A stretch of 64,000 nucleotides of DNA from Methyloceanibacter sp. wino2 (GTDB lineage: Bacteria; Pseudomonadota; Alphaproteobacteria; Rhizobiales; Methyloligellaceae). The position numbers were made by a program, and so were the translations under genes. Below, in pieces: positions 314 to 34,951 of the stretch (positions are counted from its first letter, which is position 1; each line of letters starts with the position of its first letter). A model generated the notes under the pieces. That model was not told the DNA's origin. It made no database searches and saw only the letters and a program-made list of their open reading frames with translations. The stretch lies in assembly GCF_003071365.1 (NCBI RefSeq), contig NZ_CP028960.1:372001-436000 (forward strand). The letters are read 5' to 3'.

Positions 314-334
314 CTGTTCAAACTAGTTGAACAG
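314..334 (-). promoter_or_regulatory. Perfect palindrome across the autotransporter stop codon
   Basis: CTGTTCAA (314-321) and TTGAACAG (327-334) are perfect 8-base inverted arms with a 5-base centre that contains most of the stop codon of the upstream gene. On RNA it would fold as a hairpin at the end of the coding region, with no clear U-tract after it. On DNA it looks like an operator between the two tandem autotransporter genes. I cannot tell which role applies. Confidence 0.3.
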
Positions 335-3300
335 CCAGGTCAAACGGCCCTTGACGGCGTTGTCGGAAATGTCGTCCGCATACTGGCCCGAGTAGGATAC
401 ACCGGCGGAGAGCTGGTCGCTGATCGCGAAGTCGAGGCCCGCATCCAGGAGCGCTGAGTTTTCAGCCAGCGGCACGCCGGTCACGTCGAAGCCCCTGCCC
501 GTCGTAGCGAACGCGAGCGAGGCACCCGGCGTGACGTCGTTGAAGGCATGCAGCCAGGCCACTTCCGTATGCGGGGTCACTTCCATATCGCCCCACATCA
601 CGGTCTTCGCGGCGCGAATACCCAGCGTCGTGTAGCCCACGTCTTGAGAGAAATTCGTGCCGTGCAAGGACGCTTCCGCCCCGCCCTTCTCGGTGAAGCC
701 GCCACTCTCGACGGACACATAGGCGAGACCTGCAAAGGGCTCGAGATCGACGCCGTTCATTTGCGTCGGGTAGGCAACCTCGCCGAAGAGCTGGCCCGTG
801 TCCGCGTCGTAACTTGCGTTCTGGCGTTCGTAGAAGCCCGGGAAGACCACTGCGCGGGATGTCTCGACTTCGCTCCAGGCCCACAGGCCGCCGCCGCGTA
901 GCGCGAAGTCACCGGCCATGCCGCCGGCATAGCCGCCGAGATAGTAGCTCTGCACGTTGGCGGTGCTGTAACGCTGGTCCACGCTCACATCGGAGAAAGA
1001 CGCACCCGTCGCCACACCGACGCGCCAAGTGTCGTCGATGTTCGCATCCATGCCGGAGATGAAGCCGCCGAGATTGCGATCTGCCGAGGCTGCGTTCTTG
1101 TTGCCACCGAAGTCACCCCAGGCGCCGAAGCCTTGGGTCCAGAACGCCAGTGGCTGCGGCTGGTCGACAAGCGTCTTGCCGTCGTAATAGCCCGTCCCGC
1201 CGAGCATCATGTCTTGGTTGCCGTAACTGGCGACGAGCGGCCCGCTGGAGCCGAGCGCCCCGCCGCGGTGGTTCGCCTGCATCAAGCGGCCCATGACGGC
1301 GTCGCGCGCATAGCGGCTGTCGTCCACCAGCGTGCCCGCGACCGTCGCGTGGATCTCGCCCGACAGCGCATTGAAGGCTTCGCGCGCGCCCTCCTCGGTC
1401 TGAGTCAGGACGGAGTAGAAGAGCGCATTGTCGGCCGGAAACGCATCGAGCGCCTCCGCCACGTTGCATTGGTTCTTGGTCTCGGCCACCGAGCAAAAGC
1501 TGAGATAGCTGACGCCGCCCGTGCCGCTTCCGCCGGCGCCACTGCCGCTGCCCGTGGTCGGGACGACCGTCCGCAGGAGGGTCAGGACCACGTCGTTGCC
1601 GTCGCCGCCGTCATAGACGACGCTCGGGGTCAGGAACGCATAATTGGTTTCGAGCCGGGCGAACCTGCCGTTGACGGCGTCGGACCCGTCATTCTCGATG
1701 ATCGTGTAGTTGGTGCGCGTCTTGTAGCTGCCCTTCTGGGCCAGCACCCGCAACGTCGCGCCGGTGAGGTTCACGGAGCCGTTGACGATGGCCGTGTCGT
1801 TTCGACCATCCGCGTTTACTTCGACTTCGAACACGGAACCGCTGCGGAGGGTCAAGTCGCCGTTGATCGTCATGGTCCCGATCGAGTTGCCGAGAGAGAT
1901 CGTGCCGCCATTCGAAATCACCTCGCCGAACGTGCCGGTGCCCTTCAGTGTGCCGCCGTTGAGGGTGAAAGTGTATGGCGTGGTGCCGTCGAAGCTCCAC
2001 GTGCCGCTGTCGATCTGAAAAATCTCGAATTCCTGGAACTGCTTCGTCCGGTCGCCTGTGTCGATGTCGTCGAGATCGAATGTGCCGTGTCCTCCGCCGG
2101 CGAACGCCAGCGTGTCTATGCCGGGACCCGCCAGGACCTTGCCGGTTACGGCGGCGGTCGGATGCAGCTCCATCCGGTCGTTGAACGCGTTGACCTCGCT
2201 CCGATCGAACTTCGCCGCGCCGCCGGCACCGCCGTTCAGCGTGCCGCTGACGACAAGGTTCGTCCGGCCGCCCGAGGTCTCGATCGCGAAGTCGTCGGCG
2301 TTCGTACCGGAGCTCGAGACGATGCTGCCGTTGCCAATGTCGACATTGATCGCGCCGCCGCCGCCATGGCCCAGATAGACGCCGTCCGTCGTGCCGGAGA
2401 TATTTCCCGTCGTGTTCAGGGTGATCGCCTCCGAGCCGCTGCTGGTGGCGTAGAGACCTTCGCCGCCCAAACCCTCCACGGCGCCCGCGATATCCAAGGT
2501 CAACGCGCCGGCCCCTTCGTGAACGGTCCGCAGGCCGGTCGTTGCGCCGCGAACGCTCGCCCCGCTTTGCGTTGAGATCATCGACGTTGCGCCGCTGTTC
2601 GTGGCGGAGATGCCCTCGGCGGCGGTGCCCTCGATGTTGCCGGCGATATCGAGGTTCAGCGTGCCGCTGCCACCATTGTCCGCAGCTATACCAGTTTGTC
2701 CGCTCACGGTGGTTCCCGCGGCGGTCGAAACCGAAAGATCCGTGCCGGCCGTGTTCAACGCCTGAATGCCGGATCCGCTGGTCCCGGTGACGTCGCCCTG
2801 CGTGTCGATCGTCAAGGTGCCGGTCCCGTAATTCGTCGCGGCGATGCCTGTGCGCGCGCCTGTAACCGTATCCGTGGTGGTAACCGAAAGATCCGTGCCG
2901 TAGGTCTTGGCGGTGATGCCGTTGGAACTCGTGCCGGTGACCGTTCCGCCCGCATCGATCGACAGGGAACCTGCCCCCTCGCCGGCGGCATCGATGCCGG
3001 TCTCACCGCTGACGGAGCTGATCGTTTGCACGGTGAGCGGGCCCCTGCCGTGATTGACGGCGCTGATGCCTATCTGGCTGGCGGTCACGGCGCCTTTGGT
3101 AATAACGGTCAGGCTGTTCGAGTTTGCGTTCTCGTTGACCACCTCGATCCCGTGAGCGCTGAGCCCATCGACCGTGCCGCCGGTCTCGATCGTCGTCGAT
3201 CCAAGACCGAAATTGCTGGCCTTGATGCCTGTGATGGCGCCCGAGATGGCGTCCTCTGTCGTGATCGAAAGGTCGGTGCCGAAATTCGTCGCCGAAATGC

Positions 3301-3982
3301 CGTTGTACAGCGTGCCCGTGACGGGTCCGCGCGCGTCCACCGCGAGTGAACCGGCGCCGCGATTCACGGCCTCGATGCCGGTCTCGCCGGTGACGCCGGC
3401 GCTTGTGTCGATACTCAGAAGGCCGGTTCCGTAGTTGGTGGCGCTGATGCCGGTGCGCTTGGCCACCACCGTCTCTGTAGTGAGGATCGAGAGACCCCCG
3501 CCATTGGCATTCCTGTTGAGCGCGGTGATCGCGTTTCCGTTCGTGCCTTCGACTGCACCGAGGGCGTCGATACTCAGCGAGCCCGTTCCGTAGTTTGTCG
3601 CGTCGATGCCGATTGCACCGCTGAGCGTTCCGTTCGTGCTGACGTCAACGCCGCCCGGCGTCGAGCCGTCGTTGCCGGTGGAGGACACGGACAGTGCCGT
3701 CTCCAGCACTGAAGCAAGGGAGGAAGCATTCGCGTCCGTATAGGTGATTTGGCCCTTGCCCGAGATCGAAAGCGCGGCCTGGTCGGTCGCGGAGACGCTG
3801 AAGCCAGGGAGCGTGACGACTGTCGCATTGTCGGTGTCGATGGCCTGCTCCGCGCTGCCGCCGGAACATTCGAAGTTGGGGGCTGTGCCTGTGCAATCGG
3901 CATAGGCATGCTGGCTGCCGCCCGCGACCGCGGCCACGAGCAATGACAGCAGCACGGGCACCCGTGCTGACAGCTTGGACAT
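323..3982 (-). CDS. Autotransporter with beta-helical passenger and C-terminal outer-membrane barrel
   Basis: A 1219-residue type V secretion protein. Residues 1-28 form a signal peptide ending HAYA. From about 100 to 620 there are degenerate repeats of roughly 35-45 residues rich in Gly, Thr, Ser and Asn (recurring 'GISATN', 'GTGTLTIDT', 'GETGI' elements), the pattern of a beta-helix. Residues of about 690-790 (LTLRSGSVFEVEVNADG to NDVVLTL) resemble the conserved junction that folds against the barrel. A helical linker with two cysteines follows. The last 280 or so residues (from QPLAFWTQGFGAWGDF) are a typical autotransporter barrel with alternating aromatic and small residues, ending GRLTWLFN. 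The start ATG is preceded by AGGGGGA with good spacing. The likely role is a surface adhesin. Neighbouring genes give no hint of a ligand. Confidence 0.9.
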   Translation of the reverse strand: MSKLSARVPVLLSLLVAAVAGGSQHAYADCTGTAPNFECSGGSAEQAIDTDNATVVTLPGFSVSATDQAALSISGKGQITYTDANASSLASVLETALSVSSTGNDGSTPGGVDVSTNGTLSGAIGIDATNYGTGSLSIDALGAVEGTNGNAITALNRNANGGGLSILTTETVVAKRTGISATNYGTGLLSIDTSAGVTGETGIEAVNRGAGSLAVDARGPVTGTLYNGISATNFGTDLSITTEDAISGAITGIKASNFGLGSTTIETGGTVDGLSAHGIEVVNENANSNSLTVITKGAVTASQIGISAVNHGRGPLTVQTISSVSGETGIDAAGEGAGSLSIDAGGTVTGTSSNGITAKTYGTDLSVTTTDTVTGARTGIAATNYGTGTLTIDTQGDVTGTSGSGIQALNTAGTDLSVSTAAGTTVSGQTGIAADNGGSGTLNLDIAGNIEGTAAEGISATNSGATSMISTQSGASVRGATTGLRTVHEGAGALTLDIAGAVEGLGGEGLYATSSGSEAITLNTTGNISGTTDGVYLGHGGGGAINVDIGNGSIVSSSGTNADDFAIETSGGRTNLVVSGTLNGGAGGAAKFDRSEVNAFNDRMELHPTAAVTGKVLAGPGIDTLAFAGGGHGTFDLDDIDTGDRTKQFQEFEIFQIDSGTWSFDGTTPYTFTLNGGTLKGTGTFGEVISNGGTISLGNSIGTMTINGDLTLRSGSVFEVEVNADGRNDTAIVNGSVNLTGATLRVLAQKGSYKTRTNYTIIENDGSDAVNGRFARLETNYAFLTPSVVYDGGDGNDVVLTLLRTVVPTTGSGSGAGGSGTGGVSYLSFCSVAETKNQCNVAEALDAFPADNALFYSVLTQTEEGAREAFNALSGEIHATVAGTLVDDSRYARDAVMGRLMQANHRGGALGSSGPLVASYGNQDMMLGGTGYYDGKTLVDQPQPLAFWTQGFGAWGDFGGNKNAASADRNLGGFISGMDANIDDTWRVGVATGASFSDVSVDQRYSTANVQSYYLGGYAGGMAGDFALRGGGLWAWSEVETSRAVVFPGFYERQNASYDADTGQLFGEVAYPTQMNGVDLEPFAGLAYVSVESGGFTEKGGAEASLHGTNFSQDVGYTTLGIRAAKTVMWGDMEVTPHTEVAWLHAFNDVTPGASLAFATTGRGFDVTGVPLAENSALLDAGLDFAISDQLSAGVSYSGQYADDISDNAVKGRLTWLFN

Positions 3983-32325: not shown

Positions 32326-33345
32326 ATGCTGAACCGCGCAACTGGCGCCGCACAGGCTCTGTCTCGAAGCGACAGCGATCCGCAATCCAGCTCAGCCGAG
32401 CATGCGGAATATGCCGCGCTTGAGACGACGCTGAGAGGGTCCGAGCTTGGCCGCCGATTCTTGGCGGACTATGCGCGTCAGCACCCCACACCGGAAGTCA
32501 AATTGCTGTTGGACGCGCTCGTGCGGCTCGAGTCCGCTTCGGTCGCGCCGGAACGGACTCGTCAATCGCATGGCCTCGTGTCCGAGCTCGTTGCGATGAG
32601 CGAAACCATCGGCGAATTGCGGCGGGAGATCGGCGAACTCCAGCTCGTGGACATCCCGGTATCCGATCCGATTGCGGCACCGTGCGCCTTCGAGCAGATC
32701 GTCGAAGCCTCGGCCCGCGCGACGTCCGATGTGCTCGAGGCACTGGAAGAGATTCAAAGCGTTTCATGGGCGCTGCGCGAGCAGGGCGTCGCTCTCGACT
32801 GTTGCGACAGGCTGGATGAGCGCGCCGCCGACATCTACACGGCGTGTGCACGGCGGGAGATCGCGGGACAGCAGACAGCCGATGCCCTGAACCTGCTGCG
32901 CGACGTGGAGCGCCGCATCGATGCGTTGATCGAGGACTGGAGCGACCACGAAACGAAGAACCTTCTGGATGCTGCTAAGGCTCTCGACGTGAGCGGGGCC
33001 TTCGAAACGGAGCCGCAGCAGACACGCGCCGGCGCAGCGACCGTGGACGAGAGCGAACCCGCTCGCGACGAGCATCCTCATGCGGGTCTGGAACCAGTAT
33101 CTGAACCGACACCGCGGCGGACGAACCGTCTCGTGCCCGAAGAGGCCGTCCCAGTCCCTGCAAACGACGCGGCCCCGGCAGACGAGCCCGCGCTTGTTAA
33201 GCTGCCAGCATCTACAACCCTGCCCGCACCTACCGAGCCAACGGCGTCCGCCCTCCTCTCCGACGGACCGCGCCCTTTCGAGCGGCCCGAGCCTTTGACC
33301 CTCGAAGCGCTTGTCGCCGCACAACGCGCGGCGCTTTTCGGGTGA
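32326..33345 (+). CDS. CheZ-like helical protein with altered catalytic motif
   Basis: A 339-residue protein. A CheZ-type helical-hairpin region spans about 85-205: FEQIVEASARATSDVLEALE, then YTACARREIAGQQTADALNL and RRIDALIEDW. It resembles rhizobial CheZ-like proteins in which 'ACSFQDLTGQRT' carries the catalytic Asp and Gln of the phosphatase. Here the equivalent is E178-I-A-G-Q182, so Asp is Glu and Gln is kept. The C-terminal 110 residues are Pro/Ala/Glu-rich and disordered. No chemotaxis gene is near. The CtrA-like site upstream suggests cell-cycle or motility control. I call the fold with moderate confidence, and activity is doubtful. Confidence 0.68.
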   Translation: MLNRATGAAQALSRSDSDPQSSSAEHAEYAALETTLRGSELGRRFLADYARQHPTPEVKLLLDALVRLESASVAPERTRQSHGLVSELVAMSETIGELRREIGELQLVDIPVSDPIAAPCAFEQIVEASARATSDVLEALEEIQSVSWALREQGVALDCCDRLDERAADIYTACARREIAGQQTADALNLLRDVERRIDALIEDWSDHETKNLLDAAKALDVSGAFETEPQQTRAGAATVDESEPARDEHPHAGLEPVSEPTPRRTNRLVPEEAVPVPANDAAPADEPALVKLPASTTLPAPTEPTASALLSDGPRPFERPEPLTLEALVAAQRAALFG

Positions 33346-33405
33346 CGTTTAAGTCAATATTTTCAGTATCTTAAGCTCATATCGGAAAAAATCGTCTGTC
33401 GGGTC

Positions 33406-33434
33406 TTGAAAGCCTATAGGCCCTGCCCATTTCT
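33406..33434 (+). promoter_or_regulatory. Promoter-like element, sRNA copy 1
   Basis: TTGAAA (33406-33411), 16-17 bases of spacer, then CATTTC/ATTTCT (33428-33434). The TTGAAA-spacer-CAT(C/T)T arrangement is kept in all three copies at the same distance from the core. Confidence 0.5.
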
Positions 33435-33439
33435 GGGAG

Positions 33440-33522
33440 GACGCAAGATCCCCCAACGCGTCCCCCAAACTGACGCATGAAAATGCGAACGGCCCGGTCC
33501 CCCCACCGGGCCGTTTTCTTTT
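33440..33522 (+). ncRNA. Candidate small RNA, tandem copy 1
   Basis: About 83 nt with no coding potential. The 5' part reads GACGC (33440-33444), a C-rich stretch, GCGTC (33458-33462), a second C-rich stretch, GACGC (33472-33476). The central GCGTC can pair with either flanking GACGC, so two hairpins exclude each other; one shows loop AAGATCCCCCAAC, the other CCCCAAACT. Next is GCAT-GAAA-ATGC, a GNRA-capped hairpin, then a 9-bp terminator (33490-33513) and TTTTCTTTT. The C-rich loops look like seeds against Shine-Dalgarno sequences. I do not recognise an established family. Confidence 0.7.
33490..33522 (+). terminator. Rho-independent terminator, sRNA copy 1
   Basis: CGGCCCGGT (33490-33498) pairs with ACCGGGCCG (33505-33513) around a six-C loop, followed by TTTTCTTTT. 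Confidence 0.92.
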
Positions 33523-33569
33523 GTGGCTGGCCAAGCGTCGCCGGACCGAAAAATTAATTCGCCGCGCCC

Positions 33570-33598
33570 TTGAAAGCCCCATGGCGGCGAACCATCTC
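33570..33598 (+). promoter_or_regulatory. Promoter-like element, sRNA copy 2
   Basis: TTGAAA (33570-33575) and CCATCT (33592-33597) with a 16-base spacer, conserved with copies 1 and 3. Confidence 0.5.
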
Positions 33599-33604
33599 AT
33601 GGGA

Positions 33605-33687
33605 GACGCAAGATCCCCCAACGCGTCCCCCAAACTGACGCATGCGAATGCGAACGGCCCGGTCCCCCCACCGGGCCGTTTTCTTTT
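33605..33687 (+). ncRNA. Candidate small RNA, tandem copy 2
   Basis: The C-rich core through GACGCAT is identical to copy 1. The small hairpin is GCAT (33640-33643), loop GCGA, ATGC (33648-33651): relative to copy 1 the loop changes from GAAA to GCGA, but it stays a GNRA tetraloop and the stem is untouched. That is what selection on RNA structure would leave. The terminator is identical to that of copy 1. Confidence 0.7.
33655..33687 (+). terminator. Rho-independent terminator, sRNA copy 2
   Basis: CGGCCCGGT (33655-33663) with ACCGGGCCG (33670-33678), six-C loop, then TTTTCTTTT. Confidence 0.92.
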
Positions 33688-33734
33688 GTGGCTGGCCAAG
33701 CGCCGCCGGAGCAAAAAATCAATATGGCTCGCCC

Positions 33735-33763
33735 TTGAAAGCCCCGTGACGCGGAACCATCTG
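33735..33763 (+). promoter_or_regulatory. Promoter-like element, sRNA copy 3
   Basis: TTGAAA (33735-33740) and CCATCT (33757-33762) with a 16-base spacer, as in copy 2. Confidence 0.5.
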
Positions 33764-33769
33764 AAGGAA

Positions 33770-33853
33770 GACGCAAGATCCCCCAACGCGTCCCCCAAAC
33801 TGACGCATGACAATATGCACCGGCCCGGTTCCCCAACCGGGCCGTTTTCTTTT
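33770..33853 (+). ncRNA. Candidate small RNA, tandem copy 3 (diverged)
   Basis: The C-rich core is unchanged, but the small hairpin has a six-base loop (GCAT-GACAAT-ATGC) and the terminator has a compensated extra pair (GTT/AAC) with a four-C loop. Stems are preserved while loops vary, again pointing to RNA function. Its terminator lies 25 bases from the stop codon of the converging glycosyltransferase gene. Confidence 0.68.
33821..33853 (+). terminator. Rho-independent terminator, sRNA copy 3
   Basis: CGGCCCGGTT (33821-33830) pairs with AACCGGGCCG (33835-33844), a 10-bp stem with a CCCC loop, then TTTTCTTTT. Confidence 0.92.
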
Positions 33854-33877
33854 GGGGGGCGTTTTCGGAGAGGCTGC

Positions 33878-34951
33878 TTAGGCCGCTGTTTTCTTACGCA
33901 TCAAGCGGCTGGGGCGCAGGCGGGGCAAGAGACGCCGCCGCTCGGGCAGGCCGAGATTATGGGCCGCCAGCACATTATCCAGGAACTGCTGTGCCGAGTT
34001 TTCCCAGCTGAAGTTCAAGGCATGGGACCGGGCATCCTCGCCGTTGAGGTCCAGGGCCTGCAGCGCCGCCGTCTGCAGGTCGCTATGGAGCACGCCGGCG
34101 GTCGGGTCGGTCACGACGTCCTTGGGCCCGTGGACGGGATAGGCCGCCACCGGGACCCCGCATGCCAGGGCTTCCAGGAGCACCAGGCCGAACGTGTCCG
34201 TAAGGCTGGGAAAGACGAAGACATCGCCGGAGGCGTAGGCCGCGGCAAGCTCCTCGCCTTCCTTGGGACCGGTGAAGTGCACATCCGGGTAGGCGCGCTG
34301 GAGCTCGGTCAGCTGCGGGCCCCCGCCGACAACGACTTTGCGCCCGGGAAGATCGAGCTTCAGAAAAGCCTCGATATTCTTCTCGACGGACACGCGGCCC
34401 ACATACATGAAGACGGGGCCGTCGCCGTACAGCCGCACGTTTTGCGGCCGGAACAGATCCACGTCGACGCCGCGCGTCCAGCGCATCATGCGTTTGAACC
34501 CCTTGGCCCCGAGATCCTCCTCTACCGAAGGTGCGGCCACGAACATGCCGGCCCCGCTATTGTGGAAGCGGCGCTGGAAGCTGTAGCACCAGGATTCGGG
34601 CACAGGCAGGCGCGCCGAGACATATTCGGGGAAGCGGGTGTGATAGCTCGTGGTGAACGGCCGCTTGTTCTTGCGGCAATGGCGGCGCGCCAAAAGACCG
34701 AGCGGCCCTTCCGTCGCGATGTGAACGAAGTCCGCCCCGACGCTTTCGATGTAGCGGTCGACCATGCCCGGCGTCGCTAGCGCGAGCCGGATCTCAGGAT
34801 AGGTGGGGCAAGGAAGCGTGCGATACTGCGACGGAACGAGGAAGCTGATTTCCGCGCCAAAATTGGGAATTTCCTGCGCAAGCCGCTCGTAGGTGCGCAC
34901 AACTCCGTTGACCTGGGGGTACCAGGCGTCGGTGACGACGAGAACGTGCAT
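33878..34951 (-). CDS. GT4 glycosyltransferase, Agt-like (glycolipid synthesis)
   Basis: A 357-residue GT-B glycosyltransferase of family 4. The N-domain reads VVTDAWYPQVNGVVRTYERL; the C-domain has YVGRVSVEKNIEAFL, then FVFPSLTDTFGLVLLEALAC, the E-x7-E donor-binding element of GT4 enzymes. It overlaps by one base (TAATG) the metallophosphoesterase upstream. In rhizobia and marine alphaproteobacteria that pairing corresponds to PlcP and Agt, which degrade phospholipid and build glycosyl-diacylglycerol when phosphate is scarce. By sequence alone it could also be a mannosyltransferase of another pathway. Confidence 0.8.
   Translation of the reverse strand: MHVLVVTDAWYPQVNGVVRTYERLAQEIPNFGAEISFLVPSQYRTLPCPTYPEIRLALATPGMVDRYIESVGADFVHIATEGPLGLLARRHCRKNKRPFTTSYHTRFPEYVSARLPVPESWCYSFQRRFHNSGAGMFVAAPSVEEDLGAKGFKRMMRWTRGVDVDLFRPQNVRLYGDGPVFMYVGRVSVEKNIEAFLKLDLPGRKVVVGGGPQLTELQRAYPDVHFTGPKEGEELAAAYASGDVFVFPSLTDTFGLVLLEALACGVPVAAYPVHGPKDVVTDPTAGVLHSDLQTAALQALDLNGEDARSHALNFSWENSAQQFLDNVLAAHNLGLPERRRLLPRLRPSRLMRKKTAA

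Follow-up and report, generated by a model that had tools for sequence, protein, structure and literature searches.

Three tandem putative small RNA genes with heat-shock-type promoter elements and alternative hairpin arms in Methyloceanibacter

The analyzed window, a stretch of 64,000 nucleotides from Methyloceanibacter sp. wino2, contains three putative small RNA (sRNA) units that repeat with a period of 165 bases and share 100, 93, and 77% identity over 96 nt. They lie between two protein-coding genes of a methylotroph; both Methyloceanibacter and the related genus Methyloligella are methylotrophic. The predicted start of each unit is the base just 5' of its first GACGC (33439, 33604, and 33769). 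The features of the locus are as follows.

32326..33345, + strand: upstream flanking gene, 339 aa, no matches in Pfam or NCBIfam
33405..33432, + strand: RpoH-like promoter of unit 1, CTTGAA-N16-CCATTT
33439..33522, + strand: sRNA unit 1, 84 nt, from the predicted start to the end of the terminator T-run
33440..33462, + strand: 5' hairpin GACGC...GCGTC of unit 1 with a C-rich loop, the dominant predicted state in the window genome (units 2 and 3: 33605-33627 and 33770-33792)
33458..33476, + strand: alternative middle–3' hairpin of unit 1, GCGTC CCCCAAACT GACGC, the form retained by distant homologues (units 2 and 3: 33623-33641 and 33788-33806)
33488..33515, + strand: intrinsic terminator hairpin of unit 1 with a C-rich loop, before the T-run (units 2 and 3: 33653-33680 and 33821-33844)
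33569..33597, + strand: RpoH-like promoter of unit 2, CTTGAA-N17-CCATCT
33604..33687, + strand: sRNA unit 2, 84 nt
33734..33762, + strand: RpoH-like promoter of unit 3, CTTGAA-N17-CCATCT
33769..33853, + strand: sRNA unit 3, 85 nt
33878..34951, - strand: downstream flanking gene, convergent, GT4-type glycosyltransferase

This arrangement agrees with the first-pass annotation, which had described three units at exactly 165 bases, each with TTGAAA and CCAT(C/T)T at promoter spacing, a body, and a terminator, and had likened their C-rich stretches to anti-Shine-Dalgarno sequences; runs of UCCCCC are indeed present. No fourth copy is found elsewhere in the 3.21-Mb genome by DNA search, by pattern search with up to three mismatches, or by the covariance model. 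The fold z-scores against shuffled sequences are −5.7, −5.6, and −4.3 for units 1, 2, and 3, respectively. The period itself has no meaning of its own, since the spacing of units among relatives is 166, 168, 182, or 188 bases. Relatives of the upstream 339-aa gene contain a QDITGQ stretch, which we take to be a CheZ-like motif, as it recalls CheZ phosphatases.

The DNA search for the units yields matches in 18 of the 30 genomes of the family; one genome (G029), with a match to the terminator only, was dropped, leaving 24 units in 17 genomes. Units are present, in one to three copies per genome, in 15 of the 17 Methyloceanibacter genomes and in both Methyloligella (genus g5) genomes. G014 has no canonical unit, its 31-bit hit in the full-model search being a different C-rich hairpin without a promoter, and G015 has neither a unit nor a match in the full-model search. 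A GT4 gene adjoins the units in 17/17 loci, and a CheZ-like gene in 16/17 (the exception is L013). Comparison with the sister genome G004 shows 99, 94, and 91% identity for the unit bodies; 93, 86, and 83% for the promoters; 65 and 63% for the spacers; and 79 and 93% for the flanking coding ends. The number of units and genomes, and the excess of identity in the bodies over the spacers, support the reading of these units as conserved sRNA genes. Among 297 genomes of the order, the DNA search retrieves outside the family only short pieces (27–45 bases), mainly of the terminator. At E ≤ 0.001, the covariance model has hits in 97/397 genomes of the order and 49/385 genomes of the class, with canonical units in the two genera scoring at least 71.9 bits and everything else at most 41.5 bits.

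All 24 units, from 17 genomes of the two genera, share the pattern CTTGA-N17-CCATYT-N7-GACGC. The seven bases between CCATYT and GACGC are kept in 24/24 units, and the 17-base spacer in 23/24; the exception is window copy 1, with N16, whose spacer has one C fewer than that of the near relative G018. Given the shorter spacer, the promoter of this copy may differ in strength from the others. The −35 element of the sRNA promoters is identical to that of the Sinorhizobium meliloti RpoH1 consensus, given as CTTGAA-N15-16-CCTATAT (PMC4843759), and the −10 element is similar. The pattern CTTGA-N17-19-CCATNT has 14 matches in the window genome, versus six for the reversed control; three of the 14 are the sRNA promoters, one is located 72 nt upstream of an Hsp20 gene, and one 7 nt upstream of an Fe-S cluster assembly gene. 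Since the Hsp20 gene of the same genome has this upstream pattern, the best reading of the elements is that the sRNAs would be under heat-shock-type (RpoH) control. The heat-shock type of the TTGAAA/CCATYT promoter had gone unnoticed in the first-pass annotation.

The arms of each unit follow the order GACGC, GCGTC, GACGC, and the middle arm can pair with either neighbor: all 23 distinct A1 sequences allow complementary pairing on both sides, a single G-U pair included. The arm order is as described in the first-pass annotation. Both helices are nearly invariant in A1, and hence provide no covariation, while the terminator has two pairs changed on both sides. In the window genome, the 5' hairpin GACGC/GCGUC is predicted to be more stable than the middle–3' hairpin GCGUC/GACGC by 6.1, 2.8, and 3.1 kcal/mol (copies 1, 2, and 3, respectively), because the small hairpin that follows takes part of the 3' arm. 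The predicted probability of the 5' hairpin is 0.97–1.00 at 37°C (alternative, at most 0.03) and at least 0.94 up to 42°C (alternative, at most 0.06 at 42°C); the alternative fold reaches 0.2 only at 50°C in copy 3 and at 60°C in copy 2. A heat-melting switch at 20–42°C in the window genome was rejected on these predictions. For transcripts of 42 nt, the alternative fold is predicted to be preferred in copies 2 and 3.

Across the 24 units, the difference between the 5' and middle–3' preferences ranges from +7.3 to −4.8 kcal/mol. The two folds are at most 1 kcal/mol apart in seven units (L010, L011, L013, L015, L016, L017, and L019), and the middle–3' form is favored by 2.1–4.8 kcal/mol in L018 and both Methyloligella units. 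The three-arm topology itself is confirmed; in the window genome, the folding predictions indicate that it is not a balanced switch. Hence, the two-state switch suggested earlier stands as far as both pairings are possible, but not as an equilibrium in this genome, where the 5' hairpin dominates. As the relatives are near-balanced or oppositely biased, an exchange of pairing partners in the course of evolution is a better description of the arms than an established switch.

Two smaller claims of the first-pass annotation hold in part. The small GCAT/ATGC hairpin, said to be kept, is paired in 67% of cells over A1; this hairpin can do without the G and A of the third GACGC, which nevertheless do not vary. 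The copy-3 terminator has gained an inner U-A pair, as claimed, but has lost outer pairs, so that it has 10 bp versus 11. The first UCCCCC run has an unpaired probability of 0.96–0.97 and the second, whose first bases sit in the stem, of 0.59–0.79; for the terminator-loop C-run of copies 1 and 2 this probability is 1.0.

Beyond the two genera, nine distant homologous genomes were kept: five of f12 (another family, represented by uncultured MAGs), three of g6, and one of g3. They were selected by promoter-like sites and the GUUCCCC...AAGCG core, those of g3 and g6 by sequence likeness alone; at the g3 and g6 loci read, the window's flanking genes have no match. The promoter and C-run pattern is seen in 5/5 sampled f12 genomes, and similar RNAs in 3/8 g6 genomes and the single g3 genome. 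The weak-hit loci L066–L111, 46 among the matches listed, contributed four of the homologues; the remaining ones resembled other C-rich or terminator-like elements, had no promoter, and were rejected. The covariance scores of the nine homologues (31–41 bits) are no better than those of unrelated C-rich elements and do not separate them, and hence their homology rests on promoter spacing and the core sequence. The RNA of the five f12 genomes is followed, on its own strand, by a fructosamine kinase gene, whose window homologue is separated from the units upstream of it by about 1.9 kb containing other genes.

In all nine homologues, the 5' arm (GAACC, GGAACC, GGAACU, or GGACCA) is unable to pair with the middle arm; the middle–3' hairpin has 7–8 bp and a predicted probability of 0.99–1.00; and UCCCC 5' of the middle arm is retained. 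A2, comprising 22 sequences and built before the last two homologues turned up, shows 105/105 paired cells and one compensatory change (UA to CG, in two sequences) for the middle–3' helix, versus pairing in 86% of 93 cells and no compensatory change for the 5'–middle helix. Arm use is middle–3' only in f12, g3, and g6, mixed in part of Methyloceanibacter, biased to middle–3' in Methyloligella, and 5'–middle in the window species. The simplest reading is that the middle–3' hairpin came first and that the Methyloceanibacter–Methyloligella line would have gained the 5' GACGC arm.

Comparison with 4227 Rfam families gives none over the gathering cut-off, also at a relaxed threshold, in line with the first-pass annotation, which had recognized no family; the top match is RF01723 (Rhizobiales-2), with 25.1 vs. 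40 bits and E = 0.77. No description of the sRNA was found in the literature searched, which excluded most subscription papers, and a full-text search found no small-RNA paper on Methyloceanibacter. The units form an apparently new sRNA family that resembles the cuckoo and CcsR RNAs and fails some defining features of each.

The alpha-r14 or "cuckoo" RNAs, such as NfeR1, are likewise short alphaproteobacterial RNAs with several unpaired C-rich anti-Shine-Dalgarno stretches. They are described as having three hairpins with CCUCCUCCC in each, and the stretches of NfeR1 as silencing ntrBC (PMC10746234), whereas the window units carry UCCCCC, and CCUCCUCCC is absent from 33339–33860. The Rfam ar14 model (gathering cut-off 58.8 bits) has no hits over the cut-off in 8 genomes and no weak match at the window units. 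Elsewhere in the same genome (G000:C1:1664466-1664556; L215, 1501-1591), a hairpin with a CCTCCTCCC loop is followed by a terminator-like hairpin; with an ar14 score of 27.8 bits, below the cut-off, this is a possible cuckoo-type RNA. L319 (G011:C250:2868-2952), outside the window family, has a series of three C-rich-loop hairpins ending in a terminator-like one, and by eye is cuckoo-like. L083, L088, L092, L104, L109, and L111, from other alphaproteobacterial groups, combine a C-rich-loop hairpin with a C-rich terminator loop, and are possibly further sRNA families.

CcsR1–4 of Rhodobacter sphaeroides are also tandem homologous sRNAs, under an RpoHI/RpoHII promoter; they are reported to be cut by RNase E from one ccaF1 (DUF1127)–CcsR transcript (PMC10253847, PMC8307010), while every window unit comes with a separate promoter-like site and terminator. 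Of the features of CcsR and CIN1, the RpoH-type promoter has a possible counterpart, judging by sequence, in the RpoH-like elements 5' of each window unit; as for DUF1127 upstream, the 339-aa gene scanned has no Pfam match. In regulation, being tandem and apparently RpoH-driven, CcsR is the nearest system. Effects of CcsR on C1 metabolism and FlhR have been reported (PMC10253847, PMC8307010), and the parallel with a methylotrophic host is suggestive only. SisA–D (alpha-r8) of Caulobacter are, similarly, sibling sRNAs with a common anti-Shine-Dalgarno core; this core is given as UUUCCUCCCU, and the siblings are described as having no common promoter motif (PMC12559287). The core UUUCCUCCCU is not found in 33339–33860. 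GsrN of Caulobacter is similar in having a C-rich loop that pairs with mRNA G-tracts and in belonging to a stress regulon; it is grouped with sigma-EcfG-regulated sRNAs, its BLASTn matches being reported only from Caulobacteraceae (PMC5869019).

Just 5' of the ompW start codon stands UGGGGGACG, to which CGUCCCCCA of the sRNA is complementary, and ompW is a candidate target. TGGGGGA is found just 5' of the start in 8/8 Methyloceanibacter ompW genes with a readable start from sRNA-bearing genomes (excluding two partial matches and one weak second match); in the two Methyloligella genes the sequence is UUGGGGA or GGGGGAC, and ompW of G014, a genome without a canonical sRNA, lacks TGGGGGA. The idea that the site occurs only where the sRNA is present was rejected, as GGGGG precedes the start in G003, G022, G028, and G029 too, genomes with no recognized copy. 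In the ompW start regions L219–L226, TGGGGGA is kept while the adjoining upstream bases vary.

Genes with GGGGG before the start encode exported proteins in 7/18 cases vs. 40/391 in the first sample of the window genome, which prompted the idea, and in 5/12 vs. 36/326 in the second sample, which served as the test (p = 0.0086; GGAGG control in this sample, p = 0.51); with the two samples taken together, none of 742 5-mers ranks above GGGGG for exported proteins. Gene starts and signal peptides here were called by simple rules of our own. The excess is absent from the sister genome G004 (2/17 GGGGG genes); among genomes without the sRNA, G001 shows 3/5 (p = 0.0076) and G048 1/5, and in G048 it is the ordinary GGAGG that has an exported-protein excess (7/20). 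Duplex energies at translation starts are no better than those of the reversed-sRNA control. Within the window, a gene for an apparently exported protein of 1219 aa (323-3982, - strand) has AGGGGGA before the called start, with which the sRNA could pair.

We consider it reasonably probable that the three tandem paralogues encode a trans-acting, RpoH-driven sRNA that covers G-rich ribosome-binding sites. Each paralogue would be read from a separate promoter by RpoH, the heat-shock sigma factor, and end at its own terminator, and proteotoxic stress would cause a burst of RNAs of about 84 nt, possibly dependent on Hfq, whose body contains UCCCCC twice; the terminator loop of copies 1 and 2 adds a third C-run. 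The C-runs would pair with GGGGGA-type ribosome-binding sites and block the translation of chosen mRNAs, possibly encoding envelope proteins, e.g., OmpW; a short helix would frame the C-rich stretches, using the 5' arm in the window species and the 3' arm in distant relatives. The C-runs need not mean repression, because GsrN and PmaR mostly activate: mutational tests are reported to show that the C-rich loops of both act on mRNAs, with katG activated by GsrN (PMC5869019), and PmaR mostly activating its targets and reportedly not being an anti-Shine-Dalgarno RNA (PMC6234868).

Other readings of the same data deserve weighing. A bistable RNA switch, where a signal (temperature, a target, or a protein) moves the middle arm between the 5' and 3' arms and changes the looped C-rich stretch, is unlikely: it agrees with the double complementarity throughout A1, the near-equal folds of 7/24 units, the invariant G and A of the third GACGC, and the preference of copies 2 and 3 at 42 nt, but the alternative is predicted to be rare in the window genome at both 37 and 42°C, and the 5' arm cannot pair in 9/9 outgroup homologues. 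Moreover, inspection shows that either fold leaves both C-runs largely exposed, so that a switch would have little output. It is quite unlikely that the RNAs are decoys, i.e., sponges of another RNA, or C-rich repeats titrating a factor, rather than mRNA-pairing repressors. The reported action of C-rich loops on mRNAs in related bacteria speaks against decoys, although dosage titration would agree with the triplication and the repeated C-runs, Caulobacter is reported to have a sponge RNA for anti-Shine-Dalgarno sRNAs (PMC12559287), and the duplex energies are no better than those of the control.

The promoters might also be read by a housekeeping sigma factor, with constitutive expression and an accidental likeness to RpoH sites. 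This is improbable, as the elements and their spacing are kept across two genera and a distant MAG family and one match precedes the Hsp20 gene, even though the pattern also occurs by chance, as the six control matches against 14 (three of them sRNAs) demonstrate. That the RNA is a cis-acting leader regulating a downstream gene on the same strand, as the position of the fructosamine kinase gene in the five f12 genomes might suggest, is hardly credible: downstream, the window units face the 3' end of a gene on the opposite strand, and the same GT4 neighbor is seen in the 17 loci of the core genera.

For the trans-acting, RpoH-driven sRNA, a broader interpretation is possible but doubtful, namely, a stress-driven family whose hairpin has been handed between partner arms in evolution, with bistable intermediates persisting, and which would act as a heat-shock-sigma brake on outer-membrane protein synthesis. 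The sRNA family of the genus Methyloceanibacter is apparently undescribed, and it offers a traceable case of an RNA that swaps helix partners but retains the C-rich stretches and the promoter, with some species predicted to be at the ambivalent intermediate.
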